A DNA stretch of 64,000 bases from Haliea alexandrii (GTDB lineage: Bacteria > Pseudomonadota > Gammaproteobacteria > Pseudomonadales > Halieaceae): NCBI RefSeq assembly GCF_003719295.1, contig NZ_RFLW01000001.1, positions 992,001 through 1,056,000 on the forward strand, in the 5' to 3' direction. The position numbers were made by a program, and so were the translations under genes. This document shows positions 33,322 to 41,730 of the stretch, piece by piece (position 1 is the first letter of the stretch; each line of letters opens with the position of its first letter). A model generated the notes under the pieces. It saw only the letters and a list, made by a program, of their open reading frames with translations, did not search any database and was not told where the DNA came from.

Positions 33322-34113
33322 TTAGCTGTAGCTGTGCTCGTCGCGCGGGTAGGCACCCGATTTAACCGCCTGGACAAATGCGGCAAGGGCCTCCTGAATA
33401 CTGTTGCTGCCGGTCATGAAGTTTTGCACAAAACGCGCGCTGTGGCTGGAGAGCCCCAGCATATCGTGCATCACCAGTACCTGGGCGTCAGTGCCGGCGC
33501 CGGCGCCGATGCCGATGACCGGGATATCAAGCTTGTCGCTGATGTCCGTGGCGAGGTGAGACGGCACGCACTCCAGCACCAGCAGGCTGGCGCCGGCATC
33601 CTGGATTTCCACCGCATCCGCAAGAATCGACTTCGCTTCCTTGGGCGTGCGCCCCTGGACGCGGAAGCCGCCCAGCGCGTTCACGGACTGCGGCGTGAGA
33701 CCCAGGTGCGCACACACCGGGATACCGCGCTCCACCAGCATGGAAATGGTGTCTGACAGCCAGGTGCCGCCCTCGAGCTTGACCATCTGGGCCCCGGCCT
33801 GCATCAGCCGTGTGGCGTTGGTCATTGCCTGTTCCGGCGTGCTGTAGCTCATGAACGGCATATCGGCGATGACCAGCGATGCGGGTGCACCGCGGCACAC
33901 GCATTCGGTGTGGTAGGCCATGTGCTCCAGCGACACCGGAATCGTGCTGTCGTGGCCCTGCAGTACCATGCCCAGTGAGTCGCCGACCAGAATGGTTTCC
34001 GCGCCCGCTTCGGATACGAGGCGCGAAAAGGTGGCGTCATAGGCGGTGATGCAGACGAATTTTTCTCCCGCGGCCTTCATTTTGTCGAGGGTGCTGATGG
34101 TGATCTTGCCCAT
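33322..34113 (-). CDS. panB: 3-Methyl-2-oxobutanoate hydroxymethyltransferase
   Basis: Makes ketopantoate from 2-oxoisovalerate and methylene-tetrahydrofolate, the first pantothenate step. Starting at ATG 34113 the product is 263 residues (E. coli 264). Motifs: [15 protein letters not shown] (metal/substrate), [17 protein letters not shown] (catalytic glutamate) and [21 protein letters not shown] at 34122 would overlap the kinase stop and add MQR. Its folate-dependent reaction explains the link with folK in this operon. Confidence 0.95.
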
Positions 34114-34121
34114 GCGCTGCA

Positions 34122-34805
34122 CTATCCAAAGAACGTGGGATTGAAGTAATGGCGGCCGCTGCGGATATCCAGCAGGTAATCGACCAGATGCCGGTAATCG
34201 TCCTCACCCCGTGCGAGGTCAATTTCGCTGGCGTTGACGATCAGTAAAGGAGCTTCATCGTAATACAGAAAAAACTCACTGTACACTTCGTTCAGGCGCT
34301 CCAGATAGTCGCGTTCGATGGCTTTTTCGTGGTCTATGCCGCGCTGGTGAATGCGGTCCAGCAGGATGTCTGTCGGCGCCTGCAGGTAGATGACCAGATC
34401 CGGTGTGGGCGGCTCGATGAGCAGTTGTTCGTAGACACGCTGGTAGAGCTGGAACTCGTCGCTGTCGAGGTTTACACGCGCGAACAGGGGGTCTTTCTCG
34501 ATCAGGAAATCCGCTACCCGCGACGCGGCGAAAATATCCCCCTGGCGCAGGTCGTTGATCTTCTGCGCCCGCTGGAACAGGAAGAACAGCTGGGTGGCCA
34601 GTGCGGCCTGGCGCTGGTTGCCATAGAAGCGTTCCAGAAACGGGTTCTGGTGAGCGTCTTCCAGCAGCATGGGGTAGCCGAAGGTGGCTGCCAGACGGCG
34701 TGCCAGCGTGGTTTTGCCCACGCCGATTGGCCCCTCTACCGCGATATAGCCCGGTGGTGTGCGGCCCTTGAGGTCGACGCCAGTGGTCGGGATGTCTGTG
34801 GTCAC
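34122..34805 (-). CDS. Deoxynucleoside kinase family protein (dGK/dAK-like)
   Basis: A 227-residue P-loop kinase with [16 protein letters not shown] (P-loop near residue 25), [29 protein letters not shown] and [17 protein letters not shown]. This is the pattern of deoxyguanosine/deoxyadenosine kinases rather than thymidylate kinase. The start is GTG 34805, which overlaps the folK stop (GTGA). The long open frame upstream in the same phase reads through folK and is not coding. It presumably phosphorylates salvaged purine deoxynucleosides; specificity is not decidable here. Confidence 0.88.
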
Positions 34806-35329
34806 GTTCCGGGCTCCCGTGAATCCTGCAAATGATAGTCGAGACTGATTGCACTGCGTGTAAGCCCGGTGGCCGGGCACCGGGCCAGCAAGTCGGCCAG
34901 AGGGCCAAACCCGGGAACCAGCAGCCCGTGCGGGTAAAGGTCGAGCAGAGGATAAAGGACGAAGTGCCGTTGTGCCATGGCCGGGTGCGGAACCTGTAGC
35001 CTTGGCAAGCGGATCTCCTCGCGGCCGAATAGCAGAATGTCCAGATCCAGAGTGCGGGCACCCCAGCGCACGCTGCGTTCGCGGCCCTGAGCCTGCTCGA
35101 TACCCTGCAGGGCATTGAGCAGTGCCAGTGGGTCCAGCCCGGTGGTCATGCGCACAACGGCGTTCAGGTAATCCGGTTGCTGCCCCGGGCCCACGGCGGC
35201 GCTGGCAAACAACCCGGAGCCCGCGGTAATACGCGTGCCGGGCAACCGGTTGATGGCATTGACGGCCAGTTGCAACTGCAGCGCGGGGTTGCCGAGGTTG
35301 CTGCCCAGCGCGATGCAGGCGTCGGTCAT
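34802..35329 (-). CDS. folK: 2-Amino-4-hydroxy-6-hydroxymethyldihydropteridine pyrophosphokinase
   Basis: HPPK, which transfers pyrophosphate from ATP to hydroxymethyl-dihydropterin ahead of FolP. The product is 175 residues. Motifs: IALGSNLGNP, GPGQQPDYLNAVV and the catalytic WGARTLDLDILLFG; HPAMAQRHFVL follows. The start shares one base with the pcnB stop (TGATG), and its stop overlaps the kinase start, giving tight coupling. Confidence 0.95.
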   Translation of the reverse strand: MTDACIALGSNLGNPALQLQLAVNAINRLPGTRITAGSGLFASAAVGPGQQPDYLNAVVRMTTGLDPLALLNALQGIEQAQGRERSVRWGARTLDLDILLFGREEIRLPRLQVPHPAMAQRHFVLYPLLDLYPHGLLVPGFGPLADLLARCPATGLTRSAISLDYHLQDSREPGT

Positions 35330-36642
35330 CAGGGGGCGGGCGGTCGCCGTTTGCGCGGCCGGCGTCGGCGTCCGCGCCCGGCGGCTTCTTCGCCGCCTTC
35401 GCTGGCGGTGTCGAGCATTGGCAGGTTCTGGTTCTCCGGAAGCTCTTGGAATTCGGTCCAGAAAGCGCCGACATTGCCGGTGTCCTCACCTGCCTCTTCG
35501 CGCAGCAGGAGGAAATCGTAGGCCGCGCGGAAGCGTCGGTTCTGCAGCAGCTCGCGTGCCTTGCGGCTGTTGCCGCGCTGCAGCCGCAGCTGGAACTCCC
35601 ATATCTCACGCATGGGCTGGCTGAAACGGCGCGGGATGGCGATGCTGGACACGGCACTGGCGATCACCTGCTGCGCGGCGCTGTGCATGGCGGGGACGGG
35701 CGGGTCGCCGCGCTCCTGCAGCTGCTCAGCGAGCTGCCTGGTCACAGGCCACAGCAGAGCGGCGAGCAGGAACGCGGGAGTGACTGGTTTGTCCGCCTTG
35801 ATGCGCGTGTCAGTGCTGCGCATGGCGGCCCTCACCAGCGCCATCGCGGCGGGGTCGCGGTGCAGTTCCTCTGTGCCGTCAGGGAACAGGTAGCCGAGCA
35901 GCTCGTGTGCCAGCAGTGCGTCGAAGGTGCGCTCCGCATAGCCTGAAAGGAACAGCTTGAGGAACTCGTCAAACAGACGAGCCGAGGGGATTTCACGCAG
36001 CAATGGTGCACAGCGCGGAATAGCGGCTGCGGTGTCGCTGTCAATGCCGAACTCGAGCTTGGCGGCAAACCTTGCCACCCGCAGCATGCGCACCGGGTCT
36101 TCGCGGAAGCGCTGCTCGGGGTCGCCAATGATGCAGACGCTGCGCCGCTGGAGATCCTGCATGCCGTGTACGTGGTCGTAGACTTCGAAACGGGCGGAGT
36201 CGTAGTACAGGGCGTTTACCGTCAGGTCGCGACGTACCGCGTCTTCTTCCAGCGTACCGAACACGTTGTCGCGCAGCAACAGGCCCTGTTCAGAGCGGTG
36301 TGAAGGCCCCTTGACCTTGCCCGGACGGGGTGCAGGTTCGCCGTCGTGATGGCCGCGGAATGTGGTGACTTCAATGATTTCCCGGCCCATGCGCACGTGC
36401 ACGATGCGAAAGCGGCGGCCGATAATGCGTGAGCCGCGGAACAGGGCGTGGACTTCCTCGGGCGTGGCGTCGGTCGCCACATCGAAGTCCTTGGGGTGGC
36501 CACCGAGCAGCAGGTCGCGCACGGCGCCGCCGACGAGATAGGCCTCATGATCTGCATTGCGCAACCTCGCCATGACCTTCAGGGCGCCGTCGCTGATGTT
36601 CTTGCGGGATATGCAGTGTTGGTCCCTGGGAATGACCTTCAA
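35329..36642 (-). CDS. pcnB: Poly(A) polymerase I
   Basis: Adds 3' poly(A) tails that promote RNA decay. The product is 437 residues. Nucleotidyltransferase signatures are AYLVGGAVRDLLLG, HPKDFDVATDATPEE and RRDLTVNALYYD, followed by the RNA-binding domain (GDPEQRFREDPVRMLR) and a very basic tail (RGRRRRPRKRRPP). The only start in frame after an upstream stop is TTG 36642. The protein therefore lacks the roughly 30-residue leader of Pseudomonas PcnB and begins at KVIPRDQHCISRKNISD. It lies downstream of the CrcZ-like RNA on the same strand, as in Pseudomonas. Confidence 0.95.
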   Translation of the reverse strand: MKVIPRDQHCISRKNISDGALKVMARLRNADHEAYLVGGAVRDLLLGGHPKDFDVATDATPEEVHALFRGSRIIGRRFRIVHVRMGREIIEVTTFRGHHDGEPAPRPGKVKGPSHRSEQGLLLRDNVFGTLEEDAVRRDLTVNALYYDSARFEVYDHVHGMQDLQRRSVCIIGDPEQRFREDPVRMLRVARFAAKLEFGIDSDTAAAIPRCAPLLREIPSARLFDEFLKLFLSGYAERTFDALLAHELLGYLFPDGTEELHRDPAAMALVRAAMRSTDTRIKADKPVTPAFLLAALLWPVTRQLAEQLQERGDPPVPAMHSAAQQVIASAVSSIAIPRRFSQPMREIWEFQLRLQRGNSRKARELLQNRRFRAAYDFLLLREEAGEDTGNVGAFWTEFQELPENQNLPMLDTASEGGEEAAGRGRRRRPRKRRPPAP

Positions 36643-36729
36643 GCGCGCGTTGCCTTTTGCGATGGGTAACCAGCCGCGAGTTTAGCACAGGCTAAAAGCC
36701 GTGGTCTGCAGGAGGTTGCTGGAGTATGC

Positions 36730-36920
36730 AAGTGACGGGGAAGACAGTCGTCTTCCCCATCCAGGTCACAAGCGAATCGTTATTGTTATGCGGGCGCCGT
36801 TGTTCTTATTGCGGCATCTGAGCCTGGAAATCGAAGGGGAAGAATTCTTCCCCATCCAGGTCCACAGTTTCTCTGTTATTGTTATTGGGGCACGCGTGTT
36901 ATTGTTATTGTTGTTGCCGC
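36730..36920 (-). ncRNA. crcZ: CrcZ-like small RNA (Crc/Hfq-titrating RNA candidate)
   Basis: Read on the minus strand, this gap between cbrB and pcnB carries four AAY-triplet clusters: AACAACAATAACAATAAC (rc of 36898-36916), CAATAACAATAAC (36875-36887), CAATAAGAACAAC (36799-36811) and CATAACAATAAC (36779-36790). Two strong hairpins, GGGGAAGAATTCTTCCCC (36836-36853) and GGGGAAGAC/GTCTTCCCC (36737-36758), are each preceded by ACCTGGAT. A sigma-54 promoter predicts a 5' end near 36919, immediately before the first cluster. In Pseudomonas the RNA CrcZ lies exactly here, is transcribed by CbrB and sigma-54, and sequesters Hfq/Crc through repeated CA motifs. The 3' end is unclear because no T-run follows the last hairpin. 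Confidence 0.8.
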
Positions 36921-36929
36921 GTTAAGTAA

Positions 36930-36945
36930 TGCAGGCGGTGTGCCA
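36930..36945 (-). promoter_or_regulatory. Sigma-54 promoter of the CrcZ-like RNA
   Basis: On the minus strand the sequence is TGGCACACCGCCTGCA. The -24 GG and -12 GC are separated by exactly ten bases, and TGGCAC matches the consensus fully; the -12 element is CTGCA against TTGCA. CbrB just upstream is a sigma-54 activator. Confidence 0.8.
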
Positions 36946-36973
36946 GAAAATAATAATTCTATAAAAAACAGAG

Positions 36974-37069
36974 TGTTACAATATTTCGTCTGAGTTCCCC
37001 GGTGCGCAAAATTTTAAGTTTGTTACGCATCTACTCCCCCGAACGTTACAGCAGAGCCTGCCGGTAACG
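36974..37069. promoter_or_regulatory. Putative CbrB upstream activating sites
   Basis: Four GTTAC-type half-sites lie 30-140 bp upstream of the sigma-54 promoter: TGTTAC at 36974-36979 and 37021-37026, CGTTAC at 37044-37049 and GTAACG at 37064-37069. The last two form an inverted repeat CGTTAC-N14-GTAACG. The position fits an enhancer for a sigma-54 activator. Binding by CbrB is inference. Confidence 0.5.
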
Positions 37070-37070
37070 C

Positions 37071-38498
37071 TCAGGAAGCCGTTTTTCTGCGCCGGGCGCT
37101 GGTTCCGCTACTTTTCTTGCGTGGAATTTCGAAGCGCTGACGCCGCTCCCACAGGCACTTGCGGCTGATGCCCAGTTTTTGCGCGAGTTCGGTCTCGCTC
37201 ATGGAGTCCTGGTGCTCGAGCACAAAGCGCTGGAAGTAGTCCTCCAGTGACAGATCCTCGGCGGGATCCGAGGTGATGTGACGTGGCGCCTGATAGGCGG
37301 TCTGCAGGGCCGGACCGGCGTGGCCGCGAATCCGGTTTACATTGACCAGTTCCAGGTCGATGCCCAGGGCCTCGTTGTCGATTTCCGTGTCTTCGGAAAG
37401 CACCACCGCGCGCTCGATGGCGTGCTCGAGTTCGCGCACGTTGCCAGGCCACTGGTAGGTGGTAATAGCCTGAATAGCGCGCGGTGACAGTGTCATGCTG
37501 CCTTTGCCCAGGCGTTCGGACTGCACTTCCAGCATGCGTTCCGCGAGCTGCAGAATGTCCTTGCCTCGTTCGCGCAATGCGGGTAACTGCAGCCTCAGCA
37601 CATTGATGCGGTAGTAGAGGTCCTGGCGGAACAGACCTTCTGCGGACAGCGCGTGCAGGTTGCGGTGGGTGGCACAGATCAAGCGCACGTTGACTTTGCG
37701 CGAGTGTACCGAGCCTATCCGGCGAATTTCCCCTTCCTGAATGAAGCGCAGCAATCGGGCTTGCGCTTCCATCGGCAGTTCCCCGATTTCGTCCAGAAAC
37801 AGGGTGCCGCCATCTGCGGCCTCAATCAGGCCCATGCGGCTGGCGTTGGCGCCGGTAAAGGCGCCTTTCTCGTACCCGAACAGCTCGGACTCGATAAGGG
37901 TATCGGGGATGGCTGCACAGTTGACGCAGATGAGGGTCTTGTCCGCGCGTTGGCTGTGCTGGTGCACACTGCGCGCCACCAGTTCCTTGCCGGTACCGGT
38001 TTCGCCCTGCACCAGTACCGTGGAGTCAGTGGGGGCAACTTTGCGGATATGCTCGGACAGCGTGACCATCGCCGGGCAGTTGCCGATGATGCCGGTCACC
38101 GGCGAGCCAGTGGCCGGGGCCTGTGGAGCGGCATCGCCGCGGCGCGCCGGGTGGTCGGCGATGATACGTTCGACAGCGGCGACCATGTCACTGTGGTCAA
38201 AGGGCTTGGCGATATAGTCCACCGCACCCATGCGCATGGAATCCACCGCCGAGCGCAGGCTGGCATAGCTGGTCATGATGAGCACCGGCACGTCGCCCGC
38301 TTTCTTGATCAGGTCGGTCCCGGGAGCGCCGGGCAGGCGCAGGTCCGAGATGATCAGGTCGAAATCGGTGAGCGTGTGCTTGGACTCTGCCTCCTGCACG
38401 GAGGCGGCTTCGGCAATACCATAACCGTTGCGTTCCAACAGGCGCCGCAGCGCGGTGCGGATAACCGATTCGTCTTCTACCACCAGTATCTGTTGCAT
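37071..38498 (-). CDS. cbrB: Sigma-54-dependent response regulator CbrB
   Basis: Response regulator of the CbrAB carbon/nitrogen-balance system, 475 residues. It has a receiver domain with phospho-acceptor Asp52 (IISDLRLPG), then an AAA+ sigma-54 interaction domain with Walker A GETGTGKE, the GAFTGA loop (ELFGYEKGAFTGAN) and Walker B GGTLFLDEIGE. A Fis-type helix-turn-helix lies near the C-terminus (SETELAQKLGISRKCLWERRQRF). AGGAGGTAACAACGC precedes the ATG. It is separated from cbrA by 96 bp on the same strand, and the CrcZ-like RNA is directly downstream. Confidence 0.93.
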   Translation of the reverse strand: MQQILVVEDESVIRTALRRLLERNGYGIAEAASVQEAESKHTLTDFDLIISDLRLPGAPGTDLIKKAGDVPVLIMTSYASLRSAVDSMRMGAVDYIAKPFDHSDMVAAVERIIADHPARRGDAAPQAPATGSPVTGIIGNCPAMVTLSEHIRKVAPTDSTVLVQGETGTGKELVARSVHQHSQRADKTLICVNCAAIPDTLIESELFGYEKGAFTGANASRMGLIEAADGGTLFLDEIGELPMEAQARLLRFIQEGEIRRIGSVHSRKVNVRLICATHRNLHALSAEGLFRQDLYYRINVLRLQLPALRERGKDILQLAERMLEVQSERLGKGSMTLSPRAIQAITTYQWPGNVRELEHAIERAVVLSEDTEIDNEALGIDLELVNVNRIRGHAGPALQTAYQAPRHITSDPAEDLSLEDYFQRFVLEHQDSMSETELAQKLGISRKCLWERRQRFEIPRKKSSGTSARRRKTAS

Positions 38499-38594: not shown

Positions 38595-41564
38595 TCAGAG
38601 CCCCGTGAGGTAGTGCCCGCGGGGCAATTGCAGGGTGAATCGTGTTCCCGGTTGCTCGGCCGGGCCCACCGGGCTCTGGATGTGCACGGAGCCCTGCATG
38701 TCATCCATGATGCTGTAAACCAGGGCCAGACCCAGGCCCGTGCCTTCACCGGGCTCCTTGGTGGTGAAAAAGGGCTCGAAAACCTGGGTTTGCAGTGCCG
38801 GCGGGATGCCGCTGCCCTGGTCTTCAACCTCAATGGATACGCGCTGGTGGTCCACTGAGGCGCTCACCGTAACCTGTGCGTTCGCGTTGCTCGCGTCACG
38901 CGCATTACCCAACAGGTTGACGAAGACCTGCAACAGCCGCTGGGCGTCGGCGTGCACCAGCAGCTCGCGGTCGCAGTGGTTCTCGAAGTGCAGCGGCCGC
39001 GCCTGGTGGTCCAGTTGCAGCAGGTGAATGGCTTCATCGACGCAATCGGCCAGGTTGCACGGCTCCAGGTGCACGTCACCGGCGCCTGAGCCCACGTGCG
39101 AGAAATTCACCAGGGAGTCGACGATGCGGCTGATCCGGTCGGTCTGCCTGAGGATATCCTGCGCTGCGCTGCGCACCTCTGCGGGGTCATCTTCGTAGGC
39201 GAGATTCTGCGCCAGGCAGGCGATGCCCGTTACGGGGTTGCCGATTTCATGCGCCACGCCGGCAGCGAGACGGCCGATTGAAGCGAGACGCTCACTGTGC
39301 AGCAGCTCCTGCTCCAGGCGCTCGTAGTCGGAAATATCCTCAATCAACACCAGTTGGTCACCGCCGGGAGTGCCCCCGGCGCTGGCTTTGTGCAGGCTTA
39401 TCCAGCGGGTGGTGTCGTCGTCCAGCACCACCTCCCGTTTCAGCACGGTGTCCTCACCCTCGCCGAGAAACTGTGTGATTACCACGCCCCAGGGTGCCGG
39501 CAGGGAGTCCAGCAGCGAGCCGAGTACGGCGCTTGAAGGAATGCCGGTGATGCTCTGCATACTGCGGTTCCAAAGCAGCAGTTCCCGGTCCGGTGCCAGA
39601 GAGCAGACACCGATGGGCAGGTTGTCCAGGGTTTGCCGGTAGTGCAGGCGCAGGTTGTCCAGCTCAGCAGCCAGCCCTGTGAATTGTCCGCCCGCGCGGT
39701 CCAGCCGGCGCTCGATCAGGAACAGGTCTTCACTGCTGCCGCCGGGGTTGTTGTCGAACGGAATACAGCGGCTGATAATCGAGTGGGCAACCGCCGGTCC
39801 CAGCAGGCCGGACAGGTTGGCCTCGAGGCGGCTGCGCAGCCGACGCAGGGCGTAGGGCCTGGATTCGTTGTGATCGAATTGCAGCTCGCGCAGCGCGCGG
39901 GAGACCTCGAGTTGCGCGGTGGCCTCGCCCAGCGCAAGCGCGAGCTGCTCGGTGAACGCCTGTGCGCTGCGCAGGGTGAGGGTGCGCCTTGGCGATCGAC
40001 TCAGCACATCCATGGAGCAGATCTCCGCTGCCACGCGCTCTTCTTCCGAGGGCTCACTCAGCAGTGATACAACAATGAACAGCGCAAGGTTCACCGTCAG
40101 TGCGGCGAGGCTGGCCGCTGCCCAGGCGGTGTCGTTGCCCGCGAACCAGCGTCCGGCCAGATCGGCCATCCAGGTGGGCTGGTCAATGCCGAGCACGGGT
40201 AGCAGCAGCAGGATGCACCACAGTAGCAGGCCGCCTGCGAGGCCGCTGACCAGGCCCTTGCGGTTGGCCCGCGCCCAATACGGTGTGGCCACAATACCCG
40301 GCAGGAATTGCAGCGTACCGGAAAATGCCACCAGCCCCAGTTGCGCCAGGCTGTGCTTGCCATTGACGGTCACGAAGAATCCGTAGCCGGCGAGAATCAG
40401 CAGGGCAATCAGCGAGCGCCGCAACCACTTGAGCTGGTCGTACAGTGATTGGTCAGTGCGCAGCTGCAGCAGTTGGCGCGGCAGAATGAGATGGTTTAAA
40501 CACATGTTCGCCAGTGCCAGCGTGGCCACGATAATCGCGGTGCTCGCGGCAGACAGCCCCGCGACAAAGGCGAGCGCGGCGAAACCGGGGGATTGCAGGC
40601 CGATGCCGATGGCGAGCCCGGTGTACGCCGCGGGCAGGTCGTGTGACAGCCGCATGCCGGCCCAGGCCAGCGGCAGCACTGGCAGGGCCAATAACAGTAA
40701 ATACAGTGGCAGGCCCCAGCTGGCGGCGCGCAGGTCCTGCGATTCCTTGTTCTCGGCAAACGCCATGTGGAACAGATGTGGCATGCATACGGCTCCGGCG
40801 AAGAATACCAGCAGCAAGACCCGCGCGGCATCACCCCCAACGGGCTGTTCAATCACGGCCTGGGCCGCCGGGGTTGCCGCAAGCCAGGCATCAAGGCCGG
40901 CAAAGCCTCCAAAAACCTCGCTGACCGCAATAGCCATCATGAGTAGCAGGGCTGCCAGTTTGACCAGCGATTCAAAGGCCACCGCAGTGACCAGACCGAT
41001 ATTGCGGCGCTGTGAATTCAGGTTCCGGGTGCCGAACAGGATGGCGAAGATAATGATGATTACGCAAAACAACAGCGCCAGTATGTCCTGGCGTTGCGCT
41101 GCGGGCATCACCCTGTCATGGGCCCCCGCGAGTATGTGGATGCTGTCTGCAACCGCCTGGATCTGGAGTGCCAGCAGGGGCATGAGGGTCAGGCACATGG
41201 CCAGGGTGACGGCGCCGCCGACGCGGTGACTGCGAAAACGAAAGGTCAACACATCGGCGAGTGAAGCCAGCTGGTACACCCGACACAGGCGCAGCAGCGG
41301 CAGCAGGAGCAGGGTGGCCATGAGGAACATGAGAACCACGCCGGTATAGTAGAGCAGGAAGCCGTAGCCAAAACGATAGGCGAGTTCGAAAATGGCGTTG
41401 CTGGCAATGGCACAGGCGATGACCGCCAGCGACAGGACATAGGTCGCCGGGTGGTGGGTAATGGCACGTGGCAGGGTGCCGCGGTCGGCCAGGTGCGCCA
41501 CCAGGAACAGCACCATGAGGTAGCCGACAATCGCCAGCAGGATCTCCGGCAGACTAAAGCTCAT
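38595..41564 (-). CDS. cbrA: Sensor histidine kinase CbrA with Na+/solute symporter domain
   Basis: A 989-residue hybrid of transporter and kinase (P. aeruginosa CbrA 983). The first about 510 residues form a 12-13-helix SLC5/SSS-type membrane domain. A linker (STAC-like, about 515-640) is followed by a PAS domain (about 655-760, TLDNLPIGVCSLAPDRELLLWNR). The HisKA domain has phospho-His about residue 772 (AAGVAHEIGNPVTGIA), and the ATPase domain has N-box VNLLGNARDA, DQGSGIP and GEGTGLGL. The start ATG 41564 lies inside the end of the small upstream gene, so translation is coupled. It controls CbrB and thus carbon-source hierarchy. Confidence 0.93.
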   Translation of the reverse strand: MSFSLPEILLAIVGYLMVLFLVAHLADRGTLPRAITHHPATYVLSLAVIACAIASNAIFELAYRFGYGFLLYYTGVVLMFLMATLLLLPLLRLCRVYQLASLADVLTFRFRSHRVGGAVTLAMCLTLMPLLALQIQAVADSIHILAGAHDRVMPAAQRQDILALLFCVIIIIFAILFGTRNLNSQRRNIGLVTAVAFESLVKLAALLLMMAIAVSEVFGGFAGLDAWLAATPAAQAVIEQPVGGDAARVLLLVFFAGAVCMPHLFHMAFAENKESQDLRAASWGLPLYLLLLALPVLPLAWAGMRLSHDLPAAYTGLAIGIGLQSPGFAALAFVAGLSAASTAIIVATLALANMCLNHLILPRQLLQLRTDQSLYDQLKWLRRSLIALLILAGYGFFVTVNGKHSLAQLGLVAFSGTLQFLPGIVATPYWARANRKGLVSGLAGGLLLWCILLLLPVLGIDQPTWMADLAGRWFAGNDTAWAAASLAALTVNLALFIVVSLLSEPSEEERVAAEICSMDVLSRSPRRTLTLRSAQAFTEQLALALGEATAQLEVSRALRELQFDHNESRPYALRRLRSRLEANLSGLLGPAVAHSIISRCIPFDNNPGGSSEDLFLIERRLDRAGGQFTGLAAELDNLRLHYRQTLDNLPIGVCSLAPDRELLLWNRSMQSITGIPSSAVLGSLLDSLPAPWGVVITQFLGEGEDTVLKREVVLDDDTTRWISLHKASAGGTPGGDQLVLIEDISDYERLEQELLHSERLASIGRLAAGVAHEIGNPVTGIACLAQNLAYEDDPAEVRSAAQDILRQTDRISRIVDSLVNFSHVGSGAGDVHLEPCNLADCVDEAIHLLQLDHQARPLHFENHCDRELLVHADAQRLLQVFVNLLGNARDASNANAQVTVSASVDHQRVSIEVEDQGSGIPPALQTQVFEPFFTTKEPGEGTGLGLALVYSIMDDMQGSVHIQSPVGPAEQPGTRFTLQLPRGHYLTGL

Positions 41565-41730
41565 CGGTGTGACGACGGAACTGGTTGGACCACGCAGCAA
41601 AAATCGCTGCGATCCAGAGGACAAAGGGGCGATACCAGCCGCCGTCTGCTGCCCACAGCCATTCGTCTATGGCGGGCAGGAAAATGAAGGCCAACGCCAT
41701 GAGCAGGAGCAGCGCGCGGTTGATGTACAT
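41554..41730 (-). CDS. Small membrane protein coupled to cbrA (CbrX-like)
   Basis: A 58-residue protein with two hydrophobic segments (about 5-20, ALLLLMALAFIFLPAIDEW, and 30-46, FVLWIAAIFAAWSNQF) and a charged tail RRHTDEL. Its last 11 bases overlap the start of cbrA. Pseudomonas has a comparable tiny gene between gluQ and cbrA that is translationally coupled to cbrA. The start ATG 41730 is chosen because the frame upstream overlaps the predicted promoter. Function unknown; it may assist CbrA expression or membrane assembly. Confidence 0.78.
   Translation of the reverse strand: MYINRALLLLMALAFIFLPAIDEWLWAADGGWYRPFVLWIAAIFAAWSNQFRRHTDEL

Follow-up and report, generated by a model that had tools for sequence, protein, structure and literature searches.

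CrcZ-type RNAs follow a logic like that of the CsrB/RsmZ-type sponges, in which an RNA that is itself under regulation uses repeated sites to take away a translational repressor, but they differ from these in the motif and in the protein, which is CsrA/RsmA in the case of CsrB/RsmZ. For Pseudomonas putida, the available part of a 2018 paper gives the CbrB subsites as one TGTTAC in forward and two GTAACA in reverse orientation, and reports that IHF assists at crcZ and crcY (PMC6296734). CrcY and CrcX of Pseudomonas are likewise CbrB-dependent RNAs binding Crc/Hfq (PMC8871633, available part), and CrcY also has CbrB subsites (PMC6296734, available part). The only other genus described in the accessible text of the 2022 review is Azotobacter, of the same family Pseudomonadaceae, where CrcZ/CrcY of A. 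vinelandii form the same circuit (PMC8871633). On the grounds of the synteny of cbrAB with crcZ, that text regards the system as unique to Pseudomonadaceae, and the 2018 paper, in its accessible part, calls CbrAB exclusive to Pseudomonaceae. CbrA-CbrB transcripts have been recorded in a mesopelagic Atlantic community, in a report whose accessible part does not mention the RNA (PMC5073097). A literature search by title, with most subscription journals outside its coverage, found, among the titles listed, none on CrcZ outside Pseudomonadaceae.

We analysed a 64,000-nt window, i.e. the whole stretch of DNA under study, from the 3.96-Mb genome of Haliea alexandrii (GCF_003719295.1, NZ_RFLW01000001.1, positions 992,001–1,056,000). 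The genes dksA, gluQRS, cbrA, cbrB, pcnB, folK, one more ORF, panB and panC follow one another on the minus strand, with a gap of 428 bases (37070–36643, minus strand) between cbrB and pcnB. The initial annotation had placed a CrcZ-type RNA in this gap, and the anatomy of the locus, the upstream subsites, the crc gene and the conservation in relatives described below support that proposal. In our reading, to which we assign a probability of about 0.9, a sponge RNA of the CrcZ type, about 185–190 nt long, is encoded in the gap; it would be driven by CbrB and sigma-54 and would draw Hfq off catabolic mRNAs. The flanking genes are:

38595–41624, minus strand: cbrA, with PAS, HisKA and HATPase domains; no transporter domain scored at 1e-5
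37071–38498, minus strand: cbrB, with Response_reg and Sigma54_activat domains
35329–36642, minus strand: pcnB (TIGR01942, 505 bits; cut-off 306)
34802–35329, minus strand: folK (TIGR01498, 131 bits; cut-off 54)
33322–34122, minus strand: panB (TIGR00222, 350 bits; cut-off 208)

The ORF between folK and panB (about 34122–34800, minus strand) resembles, by reading, a deoxynucleoside kinase and is a candidate for such a gene; to our knowledge, Pseudomonas has no gene at this position.

The promoter region of the predicted RNA contains the following elements, with the distances of the subsites counted from the T of TGG:

36930–36945, minus strand: sigma-54 promoter TGGCACACCGCCTGCA, GG-N10-GC, just ahead of CA cluster 1
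36967–36978, minus strand: IHF-like site TAACACTCTGTT, fitting a relaxed motif, between the subsites and the promoter
37022–37026, minus strand: R2-like CbrB subsite GTAAC, 81 nt upstream of TGG (81 in P. putida)
37045–37049, minus strand: R1-like CbrB subsite GTAAC, 104 nt upstream of TGG (103 in P. putida)
37064–37068, minus strand: F1-like CbrB subsite GTTAC, 123 nt upstream of TGG (122 in P. putida)

The order and spacing of the putative F1, R1 and R2 subsites is thus as in P. putida (L301), and one extra GTAAC is found in each species, at 34 in the window and at 149 in P. putida. These subsites and the IHF-like site add to the features noticed in the initial annotation. The same architecture was looked for upstream of 143 promoters, 119 from the order-wide gaps and 24 from Halieaceae (see below). 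GTTAC and GTAAC were both present upstream of 134 of them (shuffle mean 4.0) and lay no more than 60 nt apart in 132, the main exception being family f6 (both elements in 2 of 8). The relaxed IHF motif was found upstream of 120 of the 143 (shuffle mean 10.7), with 101 matches at 30–34 nt from TGG, and the strict IHF consensus in 38 of the upstream regions (shuffle mean 1.3). A gene for RpoN is present in the genome.

Since the sigma-54 promoter lies at 36930–36945, the transcript is expected to start near 36919, and its 3' end is most likely at about 36734–36728; an end at about 36734 gives a length of about 185 nt. The RNA, its parts and an element between it and pcnB are:

36728–36919, minus strand: predicted CrcZ-type RNA, from promoter geometry, fold, a sub-threshold Rfam match and conservation in 24 of 24 Halieaceae gaps
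36898–36915, minus strand: CA cluster 1, AACAACAATAACAATAAC, six AAY triplets
36875–36886, minus strand: CA cluster 2, AATAACAATAAC, four AAY triplets
36836–36853, minus strand: hairpin 1, with a T-rich tail, terminator-like
36799–36810, minus strand: CA cluster 3, AATAAGAACAAC
36779–36787, minus strand: CA cluster 4, AACAATAAC
36734–36761, minus strand: hairpin 2, with a 12-bp stem, the likely 3' end
36679–36689, minus strand: extended -10 like sequence TGTGCTAAACT, by direct reading

Direct inspection of the sequence confirmed the four minus-strand AAY clusters, the two near-identical hairpins and the perfect GG-N10-GC promoter that had been noted initially. The length suggested at that stage, 190–230 nt, was right as to the compactness of the RNA, whereas the predicted 185–190 nt reaches just under its lower limit. 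The number of AAY triplets in cluster 1 equals that of the six pockets of one Hfq hexamer (PMC6422490, available part). A 14-base AAY motif, AAYAAYAAYAAYAA, has its single site in the genome in this gap (a control with the reversed pattern is uninformative, since the pattern is palindromic in letter order), and the exact hairpin motif ACCTGGATGGGGAA has two genomic copies, both in the gap. In comparison with Pseudomonas, which also has CrcY and CrcX, no further copy of either motif occurs elsewhere in this genome.

The fold predicted for 36919–36728 has an energy of -59.7 kcal/mol (z -3.9), equalled by 1 of 200 shuffles. The predicted centroid pairs 2 of the 51 cluster bases and the minimum-energy fold pairs 10 of them (8 in cluster 1 and 2 in cluster 2); in these models several CA motifs lie in a single-stranded context, as is expected of a CrcZ. 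ACCTGGATGGGG stands ahead of each hairpin, at 36850–36861 and 36755–36766. A terminator scan found two terminator-like sites, both at hairpin 1 (0.7 in shuffles), and made no call at hairpin 2, which has a poor U-tract. The pairing of hairpin 1 is kept in 97.9% of pair cells (20 sequences) with slight covariation; that of hairpin 2 is kept in 92.5% (18 sequences), a value reached by 0 of 500 shuffles. One pair of hairpin 2 is AU in 9 sequences and GC in 8, and two of its pairs changed on both sides, as many as in 82 of 500 shuffles. Because pairing is kept but covariation is scant, the structural support is real but modest. A conserved small peptide read over hairpin 1 (GTG GAC CTG ...) was considered and rejected, as the frame lengths, read by eye, differ among relatives.

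With curated cut-offs, Rfam reported no CrcZ in the window. A permissive search placed CrcZ at 36921–36826 with 22.3 bits (E 7.8e-4 in 801 bases; cut-off 95). Among 11 named loci searched in this way, the model was found in 8: the P. putida control scored 349.7 bits, and seven of the 10 non-Pseudomonas loci gave 19–39 bits (E 1e-6 to 0.57), below the cut-off; no CrcZ match was obtained, even at E 1, for the other three, namely the Halieaceae metagenome-assembled genome UBA5085, Gilvimarinus agarilyticus and Halomonas rhizosphaerae. The RNA of H. alexandrii shares with Pseudomonas CrcZ (RF01675) i) the location in the cbrB-pcnB gap, ii) the sigma-54 promoter with F1-R1-R2-type subsites at like spacing, iii) the IHF-like site, iv) several CA motifs, and v) a GGGG-stem hairpin near the 3' end. 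It differs in that the Halieaceae RNA, at about 185–190 nt, is about half as long as CrcZ (the Rfam model has 398 positions), consists mostly of two modules of two CA motifs and a hairpin, and carries a CCUGGAU motif that occurs in 0 of 17 named Pseudomonas and Stutzerimonas gaps. As it falls below RF01675 both in score (22.3 versus 95 bits) and in length (about 400 nt in that family), it was filed as a CrcZ variant, which shares the regulatory head and whose body is modular and shorter.

PcnB was detected in 37 of 38 genomes searched, a set including 25 genomes of the family Halieaceae, from 24 of which the pcnB locus was obtained. All 24 gaps contain the promoter followed by at least one AAYAAYAA, so that close relatives keeping cbrB and pcnB also keep the promoter and clusters, a point on which the initial proposal could be checked. 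The module of two CA motifs and a ACCTGGATGGGG-type hairpin is present in 44 copies in these 24 genomes, two in 20 of them and one in 4. A looser form of ACCTGGATGGGG, CTGGWNGGGG, was found in all or part of Halieaceae (f1), f47, f30, f24, f4, f32, f31 and f45, and in none of the 30 remaining families or of the 17 named Pseudomonas and Stutzerimonas gaps.

Since the RNA lies directly upstream of pcnB and its terminators are only modest, the transcript could instead be a 5' leader of pcnB through which CbrB controls poly(A) polymerase. We consider this quite improbable. The extended -10 like sequence TGTGCTAAACT, which is the probable promoter of pcnB itself, lies between the RNA and pcnB and is preceded by the hairpins; 18 of the 24 Halieaceae gaps have TGTGNTARACT at no more than 110 nt from pcnB, and 20 have it when TATG is allowed. 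The length of the gap is also variable in Halieaceae, ranging from 318 to 1015.

The conserved motif CCUGGAUGGGGA of these gaps bears GGA, a consensus element for CsrA; it occurs in 23 of the 24 and, in whole or in part, in a further seven families. This distribution would fit a dual sponge, with CA clusters for Hfq and CCUGGAUGGGGA for a CsrA/RsmA-type protein, but GGA is scarce per RNA, and there is very little likelihood, in our judgement, that the RNA has this double role.

In a sample of 194 genomes of the GTDB order, CbrA was found in 146 (E <= 1e-60). Stretches downstream of cbrA were taken for 138 of these; the eight left out were G000, G018, G010 and G024, which are covered in the PcnB set, and four weak or fragmentary matches. 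A cbrB orthologue follows cbrA in 136 of the 138 regions. After three regions had been dropped (two without cbrB and one at a contig end), 135 gaps totalling 110.7 kb remained, 17 of which, with no pcnB in reach, were read up to 900 bases. They contain 506 AAYAAYAA in sense and 27 in antisense orientation (41 in shuffles), and 119 strict sigma-54 promoters in sense and 1 in antisense orientation (0.9 in shuffles). A CA motif is present in 121 gaps, a promoter in 104, both in 101 and two or more promoters in 15; AAYAAYAA is missing from 14 of the 135 and the strict sigma-54 site from 31. At least one genome with both promoter and CA motif was found in 33 of 38 families, the five without being f5, f8, f18, f42 and f43; judged by shared 11-mers, f21 represents the Pseudomonas group. 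Among named loci, the best 80 of at least 590 confirmed matches contain the promoter in 77 cases (0 in antisense) and 275 AAYAAYAA in sense versus 10 in antisense orientation, and these 80 include the genera Parahaliea, Kineobactrum, Spongiibacter, Zhongshania, Gilvimarinus, Cellvibrio, Saccharospirillum, Halomonas and Pseudomonas. A full catabolite-repression circuit operating in the lineage of H. alexandrii had been proposed initially; its sequence components are indeed present and we infer that it operates, but it is not peculiar to this lineage, being found in most of the families of the order sampled.

Several loci deserve separate mention: 1) A metagenome-assembled genome labelled Klebsiella pneumoniae (L270) has a CbrB-CrcZ-pcnB locus, and the record is probably mislabelled. 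2) In family f39 (L143, L144 and L145, from G153, G199 and G126), the gaps measure 1.7–2.0 kb and hold 13–14 CA motifs. G153 shows three tandem CrcZ-like copies, in each of which subsite-like repeats are accompanied by a promoter-like site with CGC/GGC at -12 that the strict sigma-54 pattern misses. 3) In family f8 (L182–L187), cbrB is present, no pcnB lies in the fetched stretch, the strict sigma-54 site occurs in 0 of 6, and there are three CA motifs in total.

Outside the order the situation is different. A sample of 274 genomes from the class gave 30 with CbrA at E <= 1e-100, of which 27 lie outside the order; 20 of these 27 regions were fetched, and 19 had cbrB, after which up to 1000 bases were read. 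The fetched stretches of the 19 contain no pcnB, and the bases read hold two AAYAAYAA and one strict promoter in total, with no genome having both. There are therefore CbrAB-like systems that lack the RNA at that place, and the RNA goes with the adjacency of cbrB and pcnB.

These counts also bear on whether the promoter and A-rich clusters of H. alexandrii could be chance or low-complexity sequence. Drift can yield A-rich stretches; beyond that, nothing in favour of such an origin was found. Four AAYAAYAA as in the 428-base gap occurred in 0 of 20,000 dinucleotide shuffles; a strict sigma-54 match occurred in 127 of 20,000 gap shuffles, and together with four AAYAAYAA in none. With the strand-specific conservation seen in independent genomes, and the coincidence of promoter and motif in 0 of the 19 CbrB regions outside the order, the probability of a chance origin is practically negligible.

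The protein partners of a CrcZ-type RNA are also encoded by H. alexandrii. The search for a crc gene, by which the initial proposal could be judged, was successful: the 254-residue product of L005 has P. aeruginosa Crc (4jg3) as its best PDB match (217 bits, E 2.6e-63), and has lost catalytic residues, its six catalytic positions being D N H D S H as against E D N D D H in the genome's own ExoIII. Among the ExoIII-type genes of the genome that were considered as Crc, L002 was rejected, being closer to true exonucleases; KRRE alone was likewise rejected as a mark of Crc, since it also occurs in ExoIII paralogues with intact catalytic residues. When compared with the RNA-contacting and dimer-forming residues given for P. 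aeruginosa Crc (PMC6422490, available part), K135, R137, K139, R140, R141 and E142 are kept, whereas R138, K155, M156, W161, R162, R196, R229 (now K), R230 and F231 are not. In view of these alterations, assembly of Hfq with Crc may differ from that in P. aeruginosa. The Hfq of H. alexandrii aligns to P. aeruginosa Hfq over residues 1–78, and Y25, L26, I30, L32, Q33, Q52 and T61, described as distal-face residues (PMC6422490, available part), are unchanged.

A 17-sequence Crc alignment was searched against 28 chosen genomes. Three Crc-bearing controls gave 382–403 bits. By this sequence search Crc was undetected (97 bits or less; none in G194) in 6 of 6 genomes of f43 and 5 of 6 of f29; two f17-g35 genomes gave 172–175 bits, near the ExoIII of H. 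alexandrii at 165, and the remaining 12 genomes gave 255–363 bits. The best Crc-type matches in f22, f26, f28, f17-g69 and f44 (6 sequences) have all six catalytic positions intact. Those of f22, f26, f17-g69, f44 and G052 scored 255–363 bits, and the genomes concerned were kept out of the Crc-less group, since a paralogue that is still active might serve as Crc. The seven CbrAB genomes without detectable Crc (five f29 and two f17-g35) have all kept the promoter and contain 39 CA motifs, corresponding to 5.25 AAYAAYAA per kb versus 4.57 in the 122 others. The retention of promoter and CA motifs in these seven suggests that Hfq may be the constant partner of the RNA.

It would be a further step to suppose that the RNA acts on Hfq alone, with Crc as an optional helper which may contribute little in the lineage of H. 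alexandrii. Both the seven genomes just described and the loss of several contact and dimer residues from the Crc of H. alexandrii point in this direction. However, a Crc that has lost catalysis and carries the KxxKRRE patch argues for a retained role, and the six f43 genomes (L174–L179), in which Crc is also undetected, have the strict promoter in 0 of 6 and 13 CA motifs, only 3.21 per kb. As the absence of Crc is moreover judged by sequence search, we regard action on Hfq alone as rather unlikely.

Candidate targets were sought as CA motifs 1–16 bases before ATG. Two patterns gave 29 and 19 places, versus 25 and 12 for the reversed patterns; the plain count was rejected as evidence for a regulon, since the reversed pattern was nearly equal (48 versus 37). 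A filter for an open frame of at least 90 codons with an in-frame stop no more than 150 bases upstream was passed by 11 of the 48 places. Ten genes were scanned with Pfam: eight from the 11 passing places (two being the same gene twice and two omitted), and L350 and L383, which fail the filter and whose stated start is uncertain. Nine of the ten had matches, namely a phenol hydroxylase (AACAATAAGGAGAGGCAGAGATG), a tannase, a member of a tannase-like family, a TonB-receptor plug, a penicillin amidase, a beta-lactamase-fold enzyme, a Crp-type regulator, a calcineurin-like phosphoesterase and Yip1; L363 had no Pfam match. The set, in which the start codons of the phenol hydroxylase, tannase, tannase-like, TonB-receptor and acylase genes are closely preceded by CA motifs, resembles a possible catabolite-repression regulon, although the resemblance is suggestive only.

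The anatomy of the gap is seen directly, its promoter architecture is conserved, and genes for Crc, Hfq and RpoN are present. It is very probable that the RNA functions as a CrcZ, and we infer its transcription, its binding of Hfq/Crc, the resulting derepression and the trigger along the following lines. At low levels of the preferred carbon source, CbrA would activate CbrB, which would bind F1-R1-R2; with the DNA bent by IHF, the sigma-54 form of RNA polymerase would start the RNA near 36919. The AAY clusters would then fill the distal face of Hfq, alone or together with Crc, and Hfq would be pulled from the ribosome-binding sites of catabolic mRNAs.

We tentatively suggest, at slightly less than even odds, that CbrAB-CrcZ is an ancestral circuit of the whole GTDB order and arose when cbrB came to lie beside pcnB. 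Hfq would be its constant partner and Crc dispensable, such that lineages losing Crc can keep the RNA; in Halieaceae it would have become a compact RNA built of a single module or of two, and hairpin 1 might terminate a version of half the length. The sequences of the locus and of its relatives contradict the statements, in the accessible parts of PMC8871633 and PMC6296734, that confine the system to Pseudomonadaceae. If the reading is true, carbon catabolite repression by RNA titration would be common across much of the marine and soil Gammaproteobacteria, including Halieaceae, Spongiibacter, Gilvimarinus, Halomonas and others, and the lineages that bear the RNA without detectable Crc offer a natural experiment to tell which of the two proteins, Hfq or Crc, is its real target.
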